Source: Nitrospirota bacterium (GTDB lineage: Bacteria; Nitrospirota; Nitrospiria; Nitrospirales; Nitrospiraceae). Taken from it: a DNA stretch of 64,000 nucleotides. How positions within the stretch are numbered: the first letter of the stretch is position 1; each line of letters starts with the position of its first letter. The notes beneath the pieces are model-generated. The model was not told the origin of the DNA, made no database searches, and was given only the letters and a program-made list of their open reading frames with translations. Made by a program: the position numbers and the translations under genes. Positions 144 to 16,844 of the stretch are shown one piece after another. The stretch covers positions 496,001 to 560,000 of the forward strand of contig JAPLLG010000007.1 in assembly GCA_026387665.1 (NCBI GenBank), written 5' to 3'.

Positions 144-2600
144 TTACTCCCAAGCAGAGGTCAACCCGCCCCCGGCATCCTGCCACTGAGGCACCCAGGC
201 CAGCGCGACGAGCTTCACGGCGATATTGCTCTTGGTGGGCTTGAGGGAGACGATCTCTAGTTTTTCGGTGAGTGGATCGATGGATGCGATCAATGCGTCT
301 GTCTCGGTCTTAAATTGCGCTTCGAGGTCGGAAAGCTGCTGCTGCAGCGCTTCTCTATTCTCCTCAGCTTGCCCCACATCCTGCGACTCCTTGATCGCCC
401 GCCCTGCTCCGCGAATCGCCGTCGTCGCCTTGCCAATAGTGCTCGCGCTAATCGTCTTCCGTCCCATGACGGCGCCCAAAATCGTCGCGCCAACCGAAAT
501 CGCTGCCTGAAGCTGGCTGGTGCGAGACTCAATCTGCTGCCGTTCGACCATCTGCTGAGCCCGGCGGATACGGTCTTGGAGCGAAGTCATCTTCGGCATG
601 TACTTCTGCCTCAAACTTTCTAATTGCGCGTCTCGTTGCTCCCGCCCTGACTGCTGGAGCCTGACACGGAAATCCCGCTCCGACTCGCCAGGCCTGGAGA
701 TCTCTTTCGTCCCGGGACTTCTCAAGAGATCGACTTTCTCGTTCCGAAAAAGCCAACCGGAGAAATCTTTCCCCCAGGCCTCATAGCTCTTGGCCTTCCC
801 TGCAGCGACGGGAAGACTCGCAAACTGCGCGCCCTCCGCCGGCGCTTGCTCCAGATCCGGCAGAGCCAACGCTGCCTCTGCCGCATGGTCCCAATCCACC
901 GGCACAGCCCCCTCTGCGATCGGCGCGAGCACCGTGACATCCTGCGCCACATCCACCCCGGCCTTACCATCGGAGAACCGGACTTGCGCCCCTCCCAGCA
1001 ACATCGGCTGATAGACCAATCGACTGCCGCTCGGCTGCACGCCGCGAATAGGAACGAATTGTTGCGGCACATCGGGAGGGAGCAGAGGGCGTGAGACGTG
1101 AGACGTGAAAGGTGAAACGTGGGCCATGTCAGCTGAAAATTCCGGCTGCGCGCTCACTACCTTACCTTTCACGTCTAACGTTTCACGTTTCACGGGATCC
1201 ATGAGTGCCTTGATCTGCGTCCTCGTCAAGGGCCCACGTAGATAGGACAGAGTCCAGCGTGACTGAAAAACCTCCGGCGCATCTTCATGCACATTGTTCA
1301 AGAGAAAGACTCTGCTCCCCAATCCTGCAAGAAGCTGTTCCATCTGTTGCTTGTCGAATTTCTTGCCGGAGCTGGCGGCAGCGCCTTCAAGTCCTTCAAG
1401 CACCCGCGCCTTATCTCGCTCTGTCTGAAGTCGTCCGATGAGCCAGGTGCCGGTGTTGGCCAACCCCCTATAATCCAGATCGACCGGGTTCTGCGTGGCC
1501 AGCACAACTCCAAGCCCATAGGCCCGCGCCTGCTTGAGGAGAGTCATCAACGGCGCTTTCGACGGAGGATTCGCCACAGGAGGGAAGTAGCCGAAGATCT
1601 CATCCATGTAGAGGATGGCGCGCAGACTGGTCGTCCCGGATTGCCCCCTGACCCAACCAAGGGTCTGGCTCAAGAGGAGGGTCACAAAGAACATCCGCTC
1701 CGCGTCGCTTAAATGCGCAATAGAGAAAATGGCGATCCTCGGTTTGCCAGACGGGCTATGCAGCATCTGGCCGACATCCAGCGCTTCCCCTTCGAGCCAG
1801 GCGGAAAAACCTGGCGCAGCAAGCAGATTATTGAGCTGCATCGCCAAGGCAAATCGCTCTTTCGAGGGATAGAACGAATCGAGATCGAGCACGCCGACTT
1901 TCGACAGAGGCGGGGTTTGAATCTGCTGGATGAGCGAAGCCAGATCGAGATCTTGCCCCTTCCGCCAAGACTGGTCCAGGATCGTCGAGAGCAGGATATG
2001 TTCGCGGCTCTTGATCGGGTCCGCTTCGACTCCGATCAATCCGAGCAAACTGGTCGTCGTGGTGCTCACCCGCTCGCGCAGCAGTTCGACATCGTCCAGA
2101 ATTTCCTGAGCAGGCGCGGCAAACGACTTCATGATGGAAACCGGAAGCCCCGCATTGCTCCCCGGCGTGTAGACGACGAACTCGGCCGCATCTTTGAGCT
2201 TCTGGATCCGCTCGCCGCTTTGGCCCCACTCGCTCAAGCCTTGTTTCCACAGCTCCGCCTGTTGGGTCGCAAAGTCGCCAGGGGAGAGCCCTTTCTTGCG
2301 CGCATCGTCTTCATTGATCCAGGGCGCGAAATCTTCGCCGCGGAGCTGCGGAAACGTCAGCAGCAAATTGGCCAGATCCCCTTTGGGATCGATTACGATA
2401 GCGGGAATGCCGTCGATCGCTGCTTCTTCGAGGAGCCCGAGACAGAGGCCGGTCTTGCCGCTGCCGGTCATCCCGACACAAACCGCATGGGTGACCAGAT
2501 CTTTCGAGTCGTAGAGCAACCAGCCTGGCTTCGTTTTTTTCTTAGCCAGGTCATACGGACGTCCGAGGTAGAACACTCCGAGTTTCTCAAAGTCTTGCAC
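144..2600 (-). CDS. HerA-like / DUF853-type P-loop ATPase
   Basis: This is an 818-residue ATPase of the HerA/FtsK superfamily, whose members act as hexameric DNA or protein translocases. The Walker A motif GMTGSGKT is at residues 43-50, followed by the family-typical VIDPKGD. A Walker B (ILYMDEIFGYFPP) lies near residue 330 and a TQNPVDLDY sensor-like motif follows. The C-terminal third has a charged coiled-coil stretch (SLRQKYMPKM onward) and a glycine-rich hydrophobic patch. Residues about 468-504 are encoded by a short-unit inverted repeat (1091-1194) that keeps the frame and lies between the ATPase core and the C-terminal region. No nuclease neighbour (NurA) is visible. The substrate is unknown. 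The ATPase call is firm; the biological role is not. Confidence 0.85.
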   Translation of the reverse strand: MQDFEKLGVFYLGRPYDLAKKKTKPGWLLYDSKDLVTHAVCVGMTGSGKTGLCLGLLEEAAIDGIPAIVIDPKGDLANLLLTFPQLRGEDFAPWINEDDARKKGLSPGDFATQQAELWKQGLSEWGQSGERIQKLKDAAEFVVYTPGSNAGLPVSIMKSFAAPAQEILDDVELLRERVSTTTTSLLGLIGVEADPIKSREHILLSTILDQSWRKGQDLDLASLIQQIQTPPLSKVGVLDLDSFYPSKERFALAMQLNNLLAAPGFSAWLEGEALDVGQMLHSPSGKPRIAIFSIAHLSDAERMFFVTLLLSQTLGWVRGQSGTTSLRAILYMDEIFGYFPPVANPPSKAPLMTLLKQARAYGLGVVLATQNPVDLDYRGLANTGTWLIGRLQTERDKARVLEGLEGAAASSGKKFDKQQMEQLLAGLGSRVFLLNNVHEDAPEVFQSRWTLSYLRGPLTRTQIKALMDPVKRETLDVKGKVVSAQPEFSADMAHVSPFTSHVSRPLLPPDVPQQFVPIRGVQPSGSRLVYQPMLLGGAQVRFSDGKAGVDVAQDVTVLAPIAEGAVPVDWDHAAEAALALPDLEQAPAEGAQFASLPVAAGKAKSYEAWGKDFSGWLFRNEKVDLLRSPGTKEISRPGESERDFRVRLQQSGREQRDAQLESLRQKYMPKMTSLQDRIRRAQQMVERQQIESRTSQLQAAISVGATILGAVMGRKTISASTIGKATTAIRGAGRAIKESQDVGQAEENREALQQQLSDLEAQFKTETDALIASIDPLTEKLEIVSLKPTKSNIAVKLVALAWVPQWQDAGGGLTSAWE
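1091..1194. repeat. Short-unit inverted array inside the HerA-like gene
   Basis: The left array is built of GTGAGACGTGA / GTGAAACGTG units (1091-1121) and the right array of CACGTTTCACG-type units (1165-1194). They are reverse complements separated by about 43 bases. The unit is almost the same as in the intergenic array at 35925-36008. Here the array is translated in frame, giving repetitive residues such as VKRETLDVKGK and HVSPFTSHVSR. It belongs to the same structural class as the arrays at 13862, 25190, 35925 and 47504. Confidence 0.8.
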
Positions 2601-7234: not shown

Positions 7235-7305
7235 AAGGGACGGGATTATACCATGCAGACCGGCTCGCCTTGACAAACTTGGAAGGCCGATGCTACCACC
7301 CTCTC

Positions 7306-8088
7306 ATGGTCCAGACCTCTACACCACCAGTTCAGAAGGGGACGGACACCCCGGCTGCCCCGCTCGCCGTCTCGACCTGGTCTGGCCAGGCCCGCGAACA
7401 GGCGGTTCAGCGGATGTTCACCGCGATCGCCGGCGTCTATGACCTCAACAACACGCTCTTGAGTTTCGGGCTCCACCATCGCTGGAAGAAAATCACCGCC
7501 TCCTATGTGCCGGTCACGACGGGTGGCAGGGCCCTCGACGTGGGAGCTGGCACAGCAGACCTGGCCCTCTTGATCGAACCCCGCATGGGGGTCAATGGGC
7601 GGGTCATTGCCTCAGACTTGAACCATGCCATGCTGGTCGAAGGACTGAAGAAAGTCACGAACCGGGGCCTGGGGCAACGAATCACCTGTCTCGAGGCCAA
7701 TGCCGAACATCTGGGATTTCCCGATGGGACCTTCCATGCCGTGACGACGGGGTTTTGCATGAGGAACGTCGGCAATCTCAAGCAGGCGGTCACGGAAATT
7801 CACCGGATCTTACAGCCGGGCGGGCGGTTTGTCTGTCTGGAGTTTTCCCGGCCGGTCTTCGGATGGCTGCGGGCCCTGTACGATTGGTATTCGTTCCGGC
7901 TGCTTCCCTGGATCGGCACCAAGGTGGCGCATGACACGACCGGCGTCTACGAATATCTCCCTGCTTCCATCAGGAACTTCCCGGACCAGGAACGGTTGAA
8001 ACAGACACTCCTCGATGCAGGCTTCCGCCAAGTTACCTATCGCAACCTGACCGGTGGGATCGTGGCGATCCATGTGGCAACCAAATGA
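7306..8088 (+). CDS. ubiE/menG: Demethylmenaquinone / quinone C-methyltransferase
   Basis: This SAM-dependent methyltransferase acts late in menaquinone or ubiquinone synthesis. It shows the family N-terminus [23 protein letters not shown] motif [12 protein letters not shown] (near residue 78), the GFCMRNVGN motif, LEFSRP and a C-terminal [16 protein letters not shown]. It is 261 residues from the ATG at 7306. An upstream TTG in frame at 7270 lacks family similarity and I rejected it. The gene faces away from uvrA, and its stop is immediately followed by the short-unit array of the second IVS-like unit. Confidence 0.93.
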
Positions 8089-8555
8089 AGTGCTGAGTCC
8101 TGAGTGCTAGGTGCTGAGCATGGTGAAGAAAGTTGAGCGCTTTGAAGACCTTATCGCGTGGCAGAGAGCAAGGCTGTTGACACAAACCGTCTATACTATG
8201 ACCAGAGAACGCACGTTCGCAAAAGACATCGGCTTATCCAGCCAAGCTCAACGTGCTGCGGTATCCATCATGGCCAATATTGCAGAGGGTTTTGAACGAA
8301 ATCGTCCTGGAGAATTCCATCAGTTCTTGTCCGTTGCGAAAGGCTCTTGTGCCGAGGTTCGATCTCACCTCTACGCCGCACATGATGCGGGATACCTCGC
8401 ACAAGATCGCTTCACAGAGCTACTCATTCAGGCTGAGGAAGTGGGACGGATTATCGGAGGGCTAAGAATTTCCGTCGCGGGCCAAAAGAAGCAACTCCGC
8501 GACAGCAGTGGCGCTCCTTCATCAACTCAGCACTCAGCACAAAGCACTCAGCACT
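8089..8555. mobile_element. Four-helix-bundle gene bracketed by short-unit inverted arrays (IVS-like unit 2)
   Basis: The left array carries AGTGCTGAGTCCTGAGTGCT-type units (8089-8119) and the right array CTCAGCACTCAGCAC units repeated (8526-8555), in inverted orientation. The unit begins one base after the ubiE stop. It ends so that the four-helix-bundle stop overlaps the start of the radical SAM gene (TAATG). The array unit differs in sequence from unit 1 but the plan is the same. It appears to be inserted into an otherwise continuous gene string. Confidence 0.55.
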
Positions 8556-8557
8556 AA
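8120..8557 (+). CDS. Four-helix-bundle protein (S23 / IVS-encoded family)
   Basis: This 145-residue relative of the protein at 4252-4656 shows VERFEDLIAWQRARLL, SSQAQRAAVSIMANIA, EGFERN and FLSVAKGSCAEVRSHL. The last residues, rich in Ser, Gln and His (about SSTQHSAQSTQH), are translated from the right inverted array and so are not part of the conserved fold. A GTG 9 bases upstream is also in frame, but the ATG at 8120 fits the family. Its stop codon overlaps the next gene's start by one base, suggesting translational coupling with the radical SAM gene. Confidence 0.85.
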   Translation: MVKKVERFEDLIAWQRARLLTQTVYTMTRERTFAKDIGLSSQAQRAAVSIMANIAEGFERNRPGEFHQFLSVAKGSCAEVRSHLYAAHDAGYLAQDRFTELLIQAEEVGRIIGGLRISVAGQKKQLRDSSGAPSSTQHSAQSTQH

Positions 8558-10185
8558 TGGAATCAATTCTTTACATCTTCCTCCCTTGTAAGAAGGTCTA
8601 CCCCATTGGGGTGACCTATCTGGCTGATTTCATCCATCGGCGCAAGCCGGAGGTGCGGCAGCGCATCTTGGATCTCTCCCTTTTTCCCGAAAACCAGCGA
8701 AGCGCCGCGGTCCGTGATGCGGCCACCGAATTCAAGCCGGACCTCGTCTGCTTTTCCTGGCGCGATATTCAGATCTTCTCCCCGCACGAGGGAGATTCCT
8801 CGCTGGAACACGCGTTTAACTTTTACTTTGCGAGCAACCCCCTCAAGCGGATCACCGCCTCCTTTGCGGGGCTGCAACAGCTTTACCGCTACTACAGCCA
8901 TATCCGTGCGGCGCTCTCCTACCCCTGGTTGATCGCAAAGGAGTTCCCGCGGGCGCAGATCATGATCGGCGGCGGAGCCTTTACCGCCTTTGCCGATCAG
9001 CTCATCCAGAAACTTCCGGAAGGCACCATCGGAATTCTTGGCGAGGGCGAAGACGCGATTCTCAAGGTAGTCGAAGGCCAGTCGCTGGAGCACGAACGGT
9101 ACATCCTTCGGGAAGGAAAGACCGTTCGAAAGGGCCAGCAGGGAGCGCCGGCCCTCCTCGATACGCTCACGGTTGACTTGCCCTATCTGACCTCGATCTT
9201 CCCCCAATATACGGAATATCTGGGAGAATCCATCGGTGTCCAATCGAAACGGGGCTGCCCCTACGACTGCGCCTTCTGCCTCTATCCCTACATTGAAGGG
9301 AAGCGGGTCCGCTATCGGCCCCCCTCCCTGGTCGTCCAGGATATTTCGCAGCACTACCATCAATGGGGTGCCAGGCGTTTCTGGTTCACCGATGCCCAGT
9401 TCATTACAGGGAAAGAAGCCTATCCCCAATGTACGGAGATCCTGGAGCGGATTCTCGCAGAGAAGCTGGAAATCGAGTGGTCCGGCTACATCAGGACATC
9501 GCTGATCACCCCGGAGCTGGCCAAGCTCATGGTCCGGTCCGGTGTCGGCGACCTCGAAGTCGCTATTACGTCCGGCTCCCAAGAGGTGCTGAATGATCTG
9601 CACATGGGGTTCAAGCTGGAGAAGCTCTACGACGGCTGTCGCTACCTGGCAGAAGCGGGATTCAAGGGGAAGGTCATCCTCAATTATTCGCTGAACAGCC
9701 CCAAAGAGACCGAGGAGTCGCTGCTCCAAAGCGTGGAGTCCTACAAAAAAGTCGCCGCGATCCTGGGTGAAGAGCGAGTGTTCCCCCTCATGTTCTTTTT
9801 AGGCATTCAGCCGAACACGGATCTGGAACAACGGCTGCTGGAAGAGGGCTACCTCTCGGCCGGCTATAACCCCCTGATGCTGACCCCGACGAGTATCAGG
9901 AAGCTCCTCTATAACCCGGCACCGCTCAACTCCTTCATCGCCAAGGCCTGCCTCAGGGCCTGGGAGCGCAAAGAAGGCAGCAGAGACCCCCGGAAATGGA
10001 CCGGCTCTCTCTCTCAAACTCCAAAAGAATCAGGCCCTTATGCCGATAAGAGTTTGATCAGGGGTATCGAAGGAAATTCCGGCCGCGATGCCCTCTTGTC
10101 CCTGGAAGAGATCCTGCGCTCCCGGCAATCGCTGCGTTCCGCAAAGGATTCTGGCGACAAATCCGCTGTCACACGGGGGGTCTAA
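8557..10185 (+). CDS. B12-binding-type radical SAM protein
   Basis: This 542-residue protein has an N-terminal cobalamin-binding-like domain (PIGVTYLADFIHRRKP, then PDLVCFSWRD, and a long insertion) and a radical SAM core with CPYDCAFC giving Cys 233, 237 and 240 for the 4Fe-4S cluster. The segment IMIGGGAFTAF followed by GILGEGEDAI is typical of B12/rSAM proteins of the BchE/Hpn type. Substrates in this class range from lipids to tetrapyrroles and I cannot assign one. The C-terminal 50 residues are polar and poorly conserved in appearance. It is coupled to the preceding four-helix-bundle gene by TAATG overlap. Confidence 0.88.
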   Translation: MESILYIFLPCKKVYPIGVTYLADFIHRRKPEVRQRILDLSLFPENQRSAAVRDAATEFKPDLVCFSWRDIQIFSPHEGDSSLEHAFNFYFASNPLKRITASFAGLQQLYRYYSHIRAALSYPWLIAKEFPRAQIMIGGGAFTAFADQLIQKLPEGTIGILGEGEDAILKVVEGQSLEHERYILREGKTVRKGQQGAPALLDTLTVDLPYLTSIFPQYTEYLGESIGVQSKRGCPYDCAFCLYPYIEGKRVRYRPPSLVVQDISQHYHQWGARRFWFTDAQFITGKEAYPQCTEILERILAEKLEIEWSGYIRTSLITPELAKLMVRSGVGDLEVAITSGSQEVLNDLHMGFKLEKLYDGCRYLAEAGFKGKVILNYSLNSPKETEESLLQSVESYKKVAAILGEERVFPLMFFLGIQPNTDLEQRLLEEGYLSAGYNPLMLTPTSIRKLLYNPAPLNSFIAKACLRAWERKEGSRDPRKWTGSLSQTPKESGPYADKSLIRGIEGNSGRDALLSLEEILRSRQSLRSAKDSGDKSAVTRGV

Positions 10186-10343: not shown

Positions 10344-12467
10344 ATGTATAAGACGATCTACGTGCCGGTTGATAACTCCGACCATTCCAACACCGCCGTC
10401 GACATTGGAGTGCACTTCGCCAAAGCCTTCGGCTCCAAGATCGTGGGCAGCCACGTCTATGCGGCCAAAATGCATGACAAACGCTTCAAACAGATGGAAG
10501 CGGGCTTGCCCGAAGAGTATCACGATGAAAAAGAGCTCGACCGGCAGCGCCAAATCCACGACTCGCTGATTACCCGCGGTCTCCAGATCATCACCGACTC
10601 CTACCTCGACTACGTCGATAAGAAATGCGCGGAAAACAACCTGCCGATCGAGCGGCGCTCGCTCGAAGGCCGGAACTGGAAGGTCCTGGCAGAAGACATC
10701 AATTCCAATGCCTACGATCTGGTGATCATGGGCGCCTTGGGCGTGGGCGCGGTGAAGGACAGCGTGATCGGCAGCAACACCGAGCGCGTGCTCCGTCGCG
10801 TGCGCAATTCAGACATGCTGATCGTCAAGCAGACCCAGCCCATGACCAGCGGCAAAATCGTAGTCGCGGTGGACGGCAGCCCCTATTCATTCGGTGGACT
10901 CATGACCGGCCTGGCATTAGGCAAGGCCTTCAACATGCCGGTCGAAGCCATCTCCGCCTTCGATCCCTATTTCCACTATGCCGCCTTCCATAGCATCTCG
11001 GGCGTCCTCAACGAGGAAGCCGGCAAAGTGTTCCGGTTCAAGGAACAGGAAAAGCTCCACGAAGAAATCATCGACAGCGGCCTTGCGAAGATCTACCAGT
11101 CGCACCTCGATATCTGCCGCGAAATCGCGCAGGCCGAGCAGACCGACGTCAAGACCACCCTCCTGGACGGCAAGGCCTTCGAAAAGATCATTCAATATGT
11201 CCGCAAGGACATCCCGGCCTTGCTCATCGTCGGACGGATCGGCGTACATAGCGACGAGGATATGGACATCGGCAGCAACACGGAAAACCTCTTGCGCGCC
11301 GCGCCCTGCAATATCCTGGTCTCGAACAGAAAGTACGTGCCTCCGATCGATACCTTGGCGGAATACACCATCGCCTGGACGGAAGAAGCTCTCCGCCGGA
11401 TGGAAAAGATTCCGATCTTCGCCAGAGGCGTGGCCAAAACGGCCATCCATCGTTATGCCATCGAAAAGGGCCACACCATCATCAGCAATACGGTCGTCGA
11501 TACGGCCATCGGCCACATCCTGCCCAAGGGCGCGATGGACGCCATGCGCGCATTGGGTGGCAGCCTCGAAGCGGCCGGCATCGACCGCGACAAGATGCAG
11601 GCGGACGAGTCCGTGGCCAAGGATCTGATGGGCTCGACGCTGAGCGGCATGATGACCGAGATCGTGGAAGAAAAGCCGAAAGTCAGTGAAGCGACCCAAG
11701 GCTATCTGGACCGGATGAACCAGAACTACTTTGTCTGCGATGGTTGCGGCTACATCGGCAAGGGCGAAACGCCCGTAAAGTGCCCCGTCTGCGCCGCAGG
11801 CGGCGACCGTTTCAAACTCGTCGACAAGACCATCTTCGAATCGGCCGCGAACGCCGAAGGCGCCCTCGAAACGGACCTGTCCTACGATGACGTCCCCATG
11901 CAATGGACGAAGGACGCCAAAGAAGGAATCCGTGCGGTCCCTGCCGGCTTCCAACGCCGGCGCGCCAAAGCCAAAATCGAAAAGACCGCTCGCAAGCTCG
12001 GCATGACCACGATCACGCTGGAATATGCAGCTCCCATCATTCAGGAAGCAGCCTCTGAAGACTACACCCCCATTTTCGCGAACAAGGGAACCGGCGCCTC
12101 AACCGAAGCCCAAGCCACCGTGGCCGCTGTCACAAACGGCGCCAACGGCGCGGCTGCCTCCCACGAGAACGGTCACGAAAACGGGAATGGCCAGACAGCG
12201 GAAGCGGCTCCTGCCTCTCCCTATACCTGGTCGCCAGATGCGCAGGCCAGGCTGGAACGGGCTCCGGAAGGGTTCATGCGCGAATGTACCCGCGCCCTGA
12301 TCGAAAAACATGCGGAGAAGATCGGCGTGACGACCATCACGGCCGAAGTGGCCAATGAGGGGATCGAGCAGGCCAAGGACTACATGGCGGACGCCATGAA
12401 GACCGGCAATCTGAAGGACATGATCGCCAACCTGACCGGCGCGCCGAAGTCAGGGGCCGGTCGCTAA
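10344..12467 (+). CDS. Two-domain universal stress protein fused to rubredoxin-like and three PCP_red domains
   Basis: The 707 residues fall into clear parts. USP domain 1 (about 1-162) and USP domain 2 (about 170-328) each carry the ATP-binding G-2x-G-9x-GSN motif (near 130-145 and 298-312). A first PCP_red-like domain is at about 343-385. A rubredoxin-like zinc/iron knuckle has Cys 465, 468, 480 and 483. A second PCP_red domain (MQWTKDAKEGIRAVPAGF) is at about 519-562. A Gly/Asn/His-rich linker follows, then a third PCP_red domain (YTWSPDAQARLERAPEGF) at about 627-670. PCP_red is known from the C-terminus of light-independent protochlorophyllide reductase subunits. A strong ribosome site GGAGGAGA precedes the ATG. 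The stop overlaps the next gene's start (TAATG), so the two products are probably made together. The function is unknown. Confidence 0.9.
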   Translation: MYKTIYVPVDNSDHSNTAVDIGVHFAKAFGSKIVGSHVYAAKMHDKRFKQMEAGLPEEYHDEKELDRQRQIHDSLITRGLQIITDSYLDYVDKKCAENNLPIERRSLEGRNWKVLAEDINSNAYDLVIMGALGVGAVKDSVIGSNTERVLRRVRNSDMLIVKQTQPMTSGKIVVAVDGSPYSFGGLMTGLALGKAFNMPVEAISAFDPYFHYAAFHSISGVLNEEAGKVFRFKEQEKLHEEIIDSGLAKIYQSHLDICREIAQAEQTDVKTTLLDGKAFEKIIQYVRKDIPALLIVGRIGVHSDEDMDIGSNTENLLRAAPCNILVSNRKYVPPIDTLAEYTIAWTEEALRRMEKIPIFARGVAKTAIHRYAIEKGHTIISNTVVDTAIGHILPKGAMDAMRALGGSLEAAGIDRDKMQADESVAKDLMGSTLSGMMTEIVEEKPKVSEATQGYLDRMNQNYFVCDGCGYIGKGETPVKCPVCAAGGDRFKLVDKTIFESAANAEGALETDLSYDDVPMQWTKDAKEGIRAVPAGFQRRRAKAKIEKTARKLGMTTITLEYAAPIIQEAASEDYTPIFANKGTGASTEAQATVAAVTNGANGAAASHENGHENGNGQTAEAAPASPYTWSPDAQARLERAPEGFMRECTRALIEKHAEKIGVTTITAEVANEGIEQAKDYMADAMKTGNLKDMIANLTGAPKSGAGR

Positions 12468-13852
12468 TGGGACGGTCTCTCCCGGTCCTGAACTTTCCGG
12501 CTCTGTCAGGAACGCTCGGCTCCATCCAGCAGCAAGTGACGCAGTTCTTTACCCCTGCCTCGACGGCTCCTGCGCCGCACGACGGCCGGACCGTCGATGA
12601 CTTCAAGCCCTATCTGCTCGCGCTGAATCTCACGAAACGCTGCAATCTCAAGTGCGACCATTGCTATCTCGACGCGACGACGAAGTCTGCCGGCGGGGAC
12701 GACGAACTCTCGACCGAAGAATGTTTCAAACTCATCGATCAGATTGCCGAGGTCAACAAGGGCTGCCTCATCGTGATCACGGGAGGCGAACCGCTCGTCC
12801 GCCCGGACATTCTCGACATCGCGCGCCATGCTGTGAAACACGGCTTCATGGTGGTCTTCGGGACCAACGGCATGTTGATCAACGACCAGATGGCGAAGAA
12901 CTTGGTCGAGATCGGCGTGATGGGCATGGGCATCAGCATCGACTCGCTCGACCCCCAGAAACATAATCAGTTCCGTGGCGTCCCTGGCGCATGGGAGTCC
13001 GCACTCGCCGGCATCGAGGCCTGCAAGCGAAACGGGCTGGCCTTCCAGGTGCACTTCAGCGCGCAGCCCATGAATTACCAGGAGCTGCCAGCCGTCATCG
13101 ATTGGGCGCACCAGCTCGGCGCCAAGGTCCTCAATGTCTTCTTCATGGTCTGCACAGGCCGCGGCGAAGAGCTGACCGACATCACCCCGGCCCAATACGA
13201 AGAAGTGCTCGGCTATCTGGTCAACTGCCAGGATAACTACAAAGGCATGCTCGTCAGAGCCCGCTGCGCCCCGCACTTCAAACGACTAGCCTACGAGAAA
13301 GATCCGAATTCTCCGATCACCAAAGCGACCGGCTATATGGGCGGCGGCTGTCTCGCCGGCACCAACTATGCGCGTGTGACCCCGAACGGCGAATTGACCC
13401 CTTGCCCCTACATGCCTCTATCAGCCGGGAACATCCGTGAAACCAGCTTCGCCGATCTCTGGGAGAAGTCCGACGTCTTCAATTCCTTCCGCTATCCGCA
13501 GCTCAAAGGCAAATGCGGCGATTGCGAATATACCGACATCTGCGGCGGCTGCCGGGCGCGCCCCTACGTCGATCACGGAGACTGGCTGGACGAAGATGAA
13601 TGGTGTCTCTACACGCCGAAGGGCGGAGAGAAGATCAAAGTCGCTTTCAATACGCCTGAAGAAGGCGATATCGCCTGGGATACGGACTCGGAGTCACGGC
13701 TGAACAAGATCCCCTACTTCTTGCGAGCCATGGTGAAAAAAGGCGTCGAAAAGCACGCACGCGAGAATAGCATCCCCCTGATTACCATTGAGTTGATGGA
13801 AGAACTTCGCAAGAAACGATTCGGCAACGACGCGCCGATGTTCCGGCCATAG
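12467..13852 (+). CDS. Radical SAM / SPASM protein with C-terminal PCP_red-like domain
   Basis: This 461-residue protein has the radical SAM motif NLTKRCNLKCDHCYLDA (Cys 59, 63, 66), the glycine motif TGGEPL, and a SPASM region with many cysteines (GGGCLAG, LTPCPYMP, GKCGDCEYTDICGGCRARP, WCLY) able to hold auxiliary clusters. This resembles haem-modifying (NirJ/AhbD-like) and peptide-modifying enzymes. The tail (about 405-455: SESRLNKIPYFLRAMVKKGV, then ITIELM) looks like another PCP_red domain, matching those of its coupled partner. The shared domain suggests the two proteins meet physically or share a ligand (inference). Confidence 0.88.
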   Translation: MGRSLPVLNFPALSGTLGSIQQQVTQFFTPASTAPAPHDGRTVDDFKPYLLALNLTKRCNLKCDHCYLDATTKSAGGDDELSTEECFKLIDQIAEVNKGCLIVITGGEPLVRPDILDIARHAVKHGFMVVFGTNGMLINDQMAKNLVEIGVMGMGISIDSLDPQKHNQFRGVPGAWESALAGIEACKRNGLAFQVHFSAQPMNYQELPAVIDWAHQLGAKVLNVFFMVCTGRGEELTDITPAQYEEVLGYLVNCQDNYKGMLVRARCAPHFKRLAYEKDPNSPITKATGYMGGGCLAGTNYARVTPNGELTPCPYMPLSAGNIRETSFADLWEKSDVFNSFRYPQLKGKCGDCEYTDICGGCRARPYVDHGDWLDEDEWCLYTPKGGEKIKVAFNTPEEGDIAWDTDSESRLNKIPYFLRAMVKKGVEKHARENSIPLITIELMEELRKKRFGNDAPMFRP

Positions 13853-16037: not shown

Positions 16038-16787
16038 TTACGAGTGCGGTCGCTTGGAAGCTGTCAGAGCCCGTTTGAAAACCGTGCGGAGGCCGAAATA
16101 GGCAAAGGAGTCTTTGAGGTTGGAGTACAGCCGCTTGAAAATTCCCATGTCCGGATTGGTCACATATTCCATCGTGAGGGCGATGCGTTCTTCCCCCTCG
16201 CCGAGTGGAGTCACCGCATGCCAGAGCTTATCTCCATTGAAGATCACGAGATCGCCTGGATGAGTGATCAGCTCAAGATGTTTCGGTGATTTGACCGGAT
16301 CATCCTTAAAGAGCTCACAGACCAGCTTGCATTGCGTCGACTGATCGACGAGTCCCATCAAAATGGTATAGCGAGCCCCCTTGTAGTAGGAGGTATCGTA
16401 GTGAAACCCGATATGGTCACCCGGCTCCGTGTAGTAATAGAGCGCGCAGGAATGGGGATCGCTCTCGGGACAGAGGTTCAACTTGGTTTTCACCAGACGG
16501 CTCAAGAACTCGATGAAGGCCTCGGAGCGATACAGATCGAGAAAACGCGGGGCCTTCTCCATCACCGTGTAGTAGCTCACACTCCCGCCTTTTTTGTGGC
16601 CGGGAATGTAGTTGCGATTCAGCTCGCCCTTCACCCCCTGCGCCTGCGGAACGAGATACTCTTCCACTACCAACCGGGGAAGAAACTGCGGAATGAACAG
16701 AAACTCGTTCTGGTCCCAATACTCGGAGGAGAGCCGGTCGACATCCAACCGTTTGACTGCTTCATCGACTGCTTCAATTAAAGACAT
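16038..16787 (-). CDS. 2-oxoglutarate/Fe(II)-dependent dioxygenase-like protein
   Basis: This 249-residue protein has the double-stranded beta-helix signature: GDHIGFHYDTSYY supplies the HxD iron ligands near residues 128-130, WHAVTPLGEGEERIAL the distal His, and the following Arg would bind 2-oxoglutarate. PGDLVIFNGDKLWHA is typical of prolyl-hydroxylase-like enzymes. I chose the ATG at 16787 because AGGTGA lies six bases upstream. An in-frame start 33 bases earlier has no such site. It is the last gene after lolA on the minus strand. The substrate is unknown. Confidence 0.8.
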   Translation of the reverse strand: MSLIEAVDEAVKRLDVDRLSSEYWDQNEFLFIPQFLPRLVVEEYLVPQAQGVKGELNRNYIPGHKKGGSVSYYTVMEKAPRFLDLYRSEAFIEFLSRLVKTKLNLCPESDPHSCALYYYTEPGDHIGFHYDTSYYKGARYTILMGLVDQSTQCKLVCELFKDDPVKSPKHLELITHPGDLVIFNGDKLWHAVTPLGEGEERIALTMEYVTNPDMGIFKRLYSNLKDSFAYFGLRTVFKRALTASKRPHS

Positions 16788-16844
16788 TGGATTCACCTGT
16801 TCCTCACTCGTCCCGTTCACGGCCTCTGATCCATCCCGCAGGCC

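Follow-up and report, generated by a model that had tools for sequence, protein, structure and literature searches.

The window, a stretch of 64,000 nt, encodes a 707-aa protein (ATG start, 10344-12467, + strand) in which two universal stress protein (USP) domains are followed by a PCP_red unit, a rubredoxin-like four-cysteine knuckle and two further PCP_red units. We propose that this fusion is a component of a modular tetrapyrrole-handling system in non-phototrophic Nitrospirota, in which the USP pair would serve as an ATP-responsive scaffold, and we consider the proposal evenly poised between right and wrong. The next gene encodes a radical SAM/SPASM enzyme that likewise ends in PCP_red, which a preliminary description of this DNA had overlooked. 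The features of the region are given below.

7270-8088, + strand: methyl-plastoquinone methyltransferase MpqE (410 bits, cut-off 335), upstream and probably outside the system
8557-10185, + strand: B12-binding radical-SAM protein, slr0320-like (445 bits, cut-off 775), upstream; its membership in the system is uncertain
10344-12467, + strand: USP-USP-PCP_red-rubredoxin knuckle-PCP_red-PCP_red fusion gene (707 aa)
10344-10826, + strand: USP domain 1 (aa 1-161), from the best Pfam Usp stretch (1-161) and the ATP motif at aa 130
10854-11324, + strand: USP domain 2 (about aa 171-327), from the second Usp stretch and the ATP motif at aa 297; boundaries by alignment
11376-11507, + strand: PCP_red unit 1 of the fusion (aa 345-388), 52 bits
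11730-11816, + strand: rubredoxin-like four-Cys knuckle (aa 463-491; C465, C468, C480, C483), RUBY_RBDX 26.8 bits
11904-12023, + strand: PCP_red unit 2 of the fusion, 39.6 bits
12228-12353, + strand: PCP_red unit 3 of the fusion, 42 bits
12467-13852, + strand: radical SAM/SPASM enzyme with C-terminal PCP_red, AhbD/NirJ2-like by its model matches; CNLKCDHC at aa 59
13676-13810, + strand: PCP_red unit of the radical-SAM enzyme, 56 bits
13949-14461, + strand: CopD/DUF4149-like membrane protein, the third gene; its sequence suggests about four TM helices

The preliminary description had claimed two ATP-motif-bearing USP domains, a four-Cys knuckle and three PCP_red domains in one reading frame, and all of these were detected by Pfam and motif searches. 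Usp scored 109.8 bits in two stretches, above the curated cut-off, and PCP_red (PF08369) scored 112 bits summed over three stretches (cut-off 32.5), each unit being above the cut-off individually, whereas the knuckle passes only barely (RUBY_RBDX, 26.8 bits against 26.5). The PCP_red match is above chance: scored with a purpose-built PCP_red HMM, 2000 shuffles of the fusion reached at most 11 bits, compared with 53-61 bits per real unit. By its sequence pattern, PCP_red might resemble a helix-loop-helix of the histone type. Both USP halves contain the ATP motif G-x2-G-x9-G-S (aa 130 and aa 297), and alignment of ten diverse sequences revealed that its glycines are invariant and its final S nearly so. 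Alignment of the orthologues also revealed a conserved insert in each USP half (RFKQME... and FKEQExLHEE) and showed that the USP part is better conserved than the tail. The sensing of ATP state proposed earlier may hold, its one basis being the conserved ATP motifs. The knuckle has the spacing CxxC-x11-CxxC, with CxxC pairs starting at aa 465 and aa 480, and none of its four Cys varies across 41 Nitrospira-type sequences. An AlphaFold model of the fusion, built on a shallow alignment of 41 close relatives, is of low confidence (mean pLDDT 62.5); in a Foldseek search, the N-terminal half of this low-confidence model resembled tandem USPs, with Rv2623 at the top (E 6.8e-15) and ATP-bound TTHA0350 also matched. 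Neither this model nor that of the radical-SAM protein is good enough to reveal a pocket, and we make no claim about a binding site because both are of low confidence and the alignment is shallow. The preliminary description knew of no characterised example of the architecture, and we found no published function for the fusion in the open-access literature searched.

The fusion was surveyed in a sample of 148 genomes of the phylum Nitrospirota. Every one of the 46 genomes sampled from the two Nitrospira families, f1 (the family of the window genome) and f2 (the second family of its order), has it, truncated at a contig end in one case, as do five of the six genomes sampled elsewhere in the class. 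Identity among orthologues is 80-97% for members of the same order and 60-66% for the class. In other classes it is 51-56%, and there the families f9, f13, f14 and f15 have the fusion, often with fewer PCP_red units or on short contigs. In f9, alignment shows that the fusion is without the knuckle and has retained PCP_red. The host is a Nitrospira: matches that bear names include a MAG labelled N. lenta (99%) and N. defluvii and N. moscoviensis (86-87%). A contig scan for relatives gave at least 80 loci, and all of those listed are labelled as Nitrospira and its close relatives or resemble them. In the families f22 and f23, a USP-USP gene without PCP_red adjoins a radical-SAM-PCP_red gene. The partnership of USP and radical SAM occurs both with and without the PCP_red fusion, and the PCP_red tail may have been added to the USP pair later.

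Gene order links the fusion to the radical-SAM enzyme. The fusion stop and the radical-SAM start share one base (TAATG), and the order of the two genes is kept in all 71 Nitrospira loci with enough downstream sequence. The CopD/DUF4149-like gene is third in 61 of 62 Nitrospira loci, a homologue lies downstream also in several other families, and the protein has an invariant histidine in a W-x-H-L motif. In two genomes of another family of the same class (f5), a gene with four PCP_red units lies directly 3' of the radical-SAM gene. Two further genes of the window were observed. Between mpqE and the slr0320-like gene, 8111-8557 encodes a protein of the 23S rRNA-intervening-sequence type (114.7 bits), and no homologue of it was clustered with it at the other compared loci. 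On the minus strand, 16038-16820 encodes a 2-oxoglutarate/Fe(II) oxygenase, whose best match is the HalD halogenase model (32.8 bits, cut-off 26).

The radical-SAM enzyme matches Radical_SAM (87 bits) and SPASM (43.7 bits) of Pfam, has the CX3CX2C motif as CNLKCDHC at aa 59, and ends in a PCP_red unit that matches 2KRU and 2L09 in sequence comparison. Its top two models are NirJ2 (TIGR04055, 333 bits) and AhbD (TIGR04545, 318 bits). Neither assignment was obtained, since both scores are below the cut-offs of 500, and the enzyme falls outside the AhbD clade in the tree. We also asked whether this enzyme supplies a haem b synthase that Nitrospira would otherwise lack, and rejected this as its general role; HemQ, HemH and HemY are present, and the f22/f23 relatives also own a stronger AhbD match close to ferrochelatase. 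Because it lies outside the AhbD clade and Nitrospira has HemY, HemH and HemQ, the enzyme probably does not make haem b. It may produce a modified haem or provide an oxygen-independent alternative.

Elsewhere, PCP_red is known from ChlB, whose substrate is protochlorophyllide. Here, it was found on haem enzymes. In G137 and G010, PCP_red is N-terminal on a chlorite-dismutase-family protein (L191:8082-9044 and L195:6551-7678) whose best NCBIfam models are HemQ, below their cut-offs. A survey of 296 genomes found the complete PCP_red-HemQ fusion in G137, G278, G244 and G131, and two matches each with long frames in ten f16 genomes including G010; this type of fusion recurs across f6, f7 and f16. 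In Nitrospira, HemQ is unfused, and in the window genome it has its own gene, on a different contig, and lacks PCP_red. The AhbD of G016 (f13; L210:990-2378, minus strand) has a C-terminal PCP_red; it reaches 488 bits (cut-off 500), and the tree places it with AhbD (100/98) on a long branch. Three f13 genomes have an AhbC-like gene above 520 bits, and in G016, HemH, HemQ and HemF were not found and neither HemY nor HemN was over its cut-off; the haem route of G016 is AhbC-type. HemQ and AhbD are unrelated enzymes, and each converts coprohaem into haem b (PMC7242693). Among the inspected PCP_red proteins, the only enzyme partners were AhbD-like radical-SAM proteins, AhbD and HemQ. The fusions of PCP_red to HemQ, AhbD and ChlB thus point, indirectly, to tetrapyrroles. 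In G008, moreover, a radical-SAM protein with four PCP_red units adjoins a second HemY. This second HemY-type protoporphyrinogen oxidase is at L061:3184-4575, and the other HemY of G008 lies with HemN and HemH.

As for the haem pathway of Nitrospira itself, HemY, HemH and HemQ are present, HemF is absent and no HemN is over its cut-off, and the ending is therefore judged from gene content to be coproporphyrin-type. In f2, HemQ is present in the genomes searched and HemY in the two checked, and ferrochelatase (PF00762) was over its cut-off in none of 21 genomes searched. At two f2 loci, L229 (G065) and L231 (G111), HemH is gone between HemE and HemY, as comparison with the window genome (L230, C7:82001-94000) shows. 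One lead for iron insertion in f2 comes from short frames (182-188 aa) that score 12-16 bits.

Five genes of the window genome together carry 12 PCP_red units: three in the fusion, one in the radical-SAM enzyme, four in a 333-aa protein, and two each in a 252-aa and a 164-aa protein. None of the 12 is in a ChlB frame, so a chlorophyll link was rejected; the preliminary description's remark that no chlorophyll gene is seen is borne out for ChlB across the PCP_red units of the genome. It had also presented a single odd protein, and although the fusion is real, it is one member of a multi-gene PCP_red system. The 252-aa type adjoins an Mrp/NUBPL-type ATPase gene in all seven loci observed, and it has a CxxC...CxxC knuckle and, in six of the seven, a CPF motif. 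The CPF of these Mrp-linked proteins (L040:3703-4461, minus strand; L055, L073, L192, L208, L209) resembles a haem regulatory motif. In several Nitrospirales genomes, the gene of the 164-aa type is part of a conserved operon that also holds cytochrome bd-like oxidase genes and usually DUF420. Small single-PCP_red genes were also observed at L197:7003-8999 and L198:6441-8442, directly 3' of a B12-binding radical-SAM gene and clustered with dCTP deaminase-like, HAD and thymidylate-synthase-like genes. A very small lone PCP_red frame lies at about 1370-1555 (+) of L194, just 3' of a His-rich cupin-like gene, in a genome without the USP-PCP_red fusion.

A respiratory link was also found in G087. 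At L063:17-11448, on the minus strand, one cluster holds, in this order, a radical-SAM-PCP_red gene, a USP-USP gene, a bd-like oxidase and two cytochromes c, then a frame that lacks annotation but seems TorD-like on visual inspection, and it continues with the alpha and beta subunits of a type II DMSO reductase and an EB_dh gamma subunit; the USP-USP and radical-SAM domains were assigned by homology to the window pair. For N. moscoviensis, the genes reported to be among the most transcribed include a cluster that comprises a bd-like oxidase, an alternative NXR gamma subunit and two cytochromes c (PMC6606698).

We therefore read the system as follows, because PCP_red is fused to HemQ and AhbD, which both turn coprohaem into haem b, and to ChlB, because the fusion is translationally coupled to a radical-SAM-PCP_red enzyme nearest to the NirJ2 and AhbD models, and because the radical-SAM-4xPCP_red gene of G008 adjoins a second HemY. 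PCP_red units would be small modules for binding or handing over tetrapyrroles, carried by tetrapyrrole enzymes and their partners. The radical-SAM enzyme would most likely modify propionate side chains of porphyrin or haem. The tandem ATP-binding USP part would be its ATP-responsive scaffold and partner, a role suggested by the conserved ATP motifs. PCP_red proteins may then relay a product or intermediate to respiratory haem proteins of the membrane. Cytochrome bd-like oxidases are the leading candidate recipients, because of the 2xPCP_red gene in the oxidase operon and the G087 cluster. The earlier idea that the fusion could hold a tetrapyrrole thus gains indirect support, from the PCP_red-HemQ and PCP_red-AhbD fusions of relatives and the AhbD/NirJ2-like neighbour. 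Several observations count against tetrapyrrole handling. Nitrospira has HemY, HemH and HemQ, and therefore no haem b step is missing; SPASM peptide modifiers are common; the USP partner of f22/f23 is without PCP_red; the PCP_red gene at L197 stands amid non-tetrapyrrole genes; and the PCP_red genes of the window genome are not adjacent to haem genes. A bolder version, which we find rather doubtful, is that the USP-PCP_red scaffold, the radical-SAM-PCP_red enzyme, the 4xPCP_red protein, the 2xPCP_red protein with its Mrp ATPase and the 2xPCP_red protein of the bd operon form an undescribed system of Nitrospirota, dedicated to making and delivering a modified haem for their unusual bd-like respiratory enzymes, PCP_red being a general tetrapyrrole carrier domain and not a chlorophyll domain.

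The main rival is that PCP_red is a protein docking module without tetrapyrrole contact, the radical SAM/SPASM enzyme a peptide or protein maturase of a respiratory subunit, and the USP fusion an adaptor. Peptide modification is a frequent role of SPASM enzymes; the SPASM matches include many peptide maturases and PqqE, and both the occurrence of tandem PCP_red arrays on several proteins encoded by a single genome, which fits mutual docking, and the operon links with respiratory subunits agree with it. We nevertheless regard it as unlikely, though worth serious attention, since the tetrapyrrole enzymes NirJ2 and AhbD are the best models, far above the peptide maturases, and the PCP_red enzyme fusions found are HemQ and AhbD. 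Docking and tetrapyrrole work are also compatible and not exclusive. The fusion might instead be a regulator, in which the USPs sense ATP or low oxygen and steer haem enzymes through the PCP_red tail without any cofactor. The tandem USP fold with its ATP motifs is consistent with this, as is the report that several USPs of N. marina, next to co-regulated operons, go up at low O2 (PMC8115632). This is improbable in our view, however, because an identity of 80-97% in the order and long invariant inserts are high for a stress regulator, and translational coupling to an enzyme fits a working partner.

Two other functions were weighed and appear very improbable. One is methyl-plastoquinone synthesis together with the upstream genes, as mpqE (57 of 60) and the slr0320-like gene (55 of 60) lie upstream in Nitrospira loci and Nitrospira makes methyl-plastoquinones (PMC12324825). 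This adjacency was absent at the inspected f2 loci and at loci of other families of the class, so it does not hold outside f1 while the fusion and the radical-SAM gene persist, and membership in such an operon was rejected. The other, to which we give equally little credence, is that the fusion is an iron-sulphur or metal carrier whose Cys knuckles do the work on a PCP_red scaffold. The 252-aa protein, with its own knuckle and its Mrp/NUBPL neighbour, would suit such a role, but the f9 fusion without the knuckle keeps PCP_red, and the fusions of PCP_red to HemQ and AhbD would be left unexplained. The metal cofactor of the preliminary description could likewise be held solely through the knuckle, which is missing in some relatives.

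PCP_red has so far been an annotation tied to protochlorophyllide reductase. Its presence on both of the unrelated enzymes that make haem b from coprohaem suggests that it has a general part in tetrapyrrole handling, which can be tested directly. Nearly all Nitrospira carry the fusion, and these major nitrite oxidisers and comammox bacteria have uncharacterised cytochrome bd-like oxidases. Thus, it may supply a missing part of the assembly of respiratory cofactors in Nitrospira.

Among known systems, subunit B of DPOR (ChlB/BchB; PDB 2KRU, also 2XDQ and 8VQI) has a C-terminal PCP_red domain that every such unit of the fusion matches, but the fusion has USP domains in place of the nitrogenase-like ChlB body and three PCP_red units in one protein. 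The tandem USPs Rv2623 and TTHA0350 also have two USP folds per chain with ATP motifs in both, although identity is about 16% and the fusion adds conserved inserts in both halves and the PCP_red/knuckle tail. The neighbouring enzyme resembles AhbD and NirJ2 in its radical-SAM motif, its SPASM domain and its best two models, and differs from them in scoring below the cut-offs, in lying outside the AhbD clade and in its C-terminal PCP_red. Finally, the coprohaem decarboxylase HemQ/ChdC is similar in that HemQ-type proteins of f6, f7 and f16 carry an N-terminal PCP_red, whereas the HemQ of the window genome carries none.
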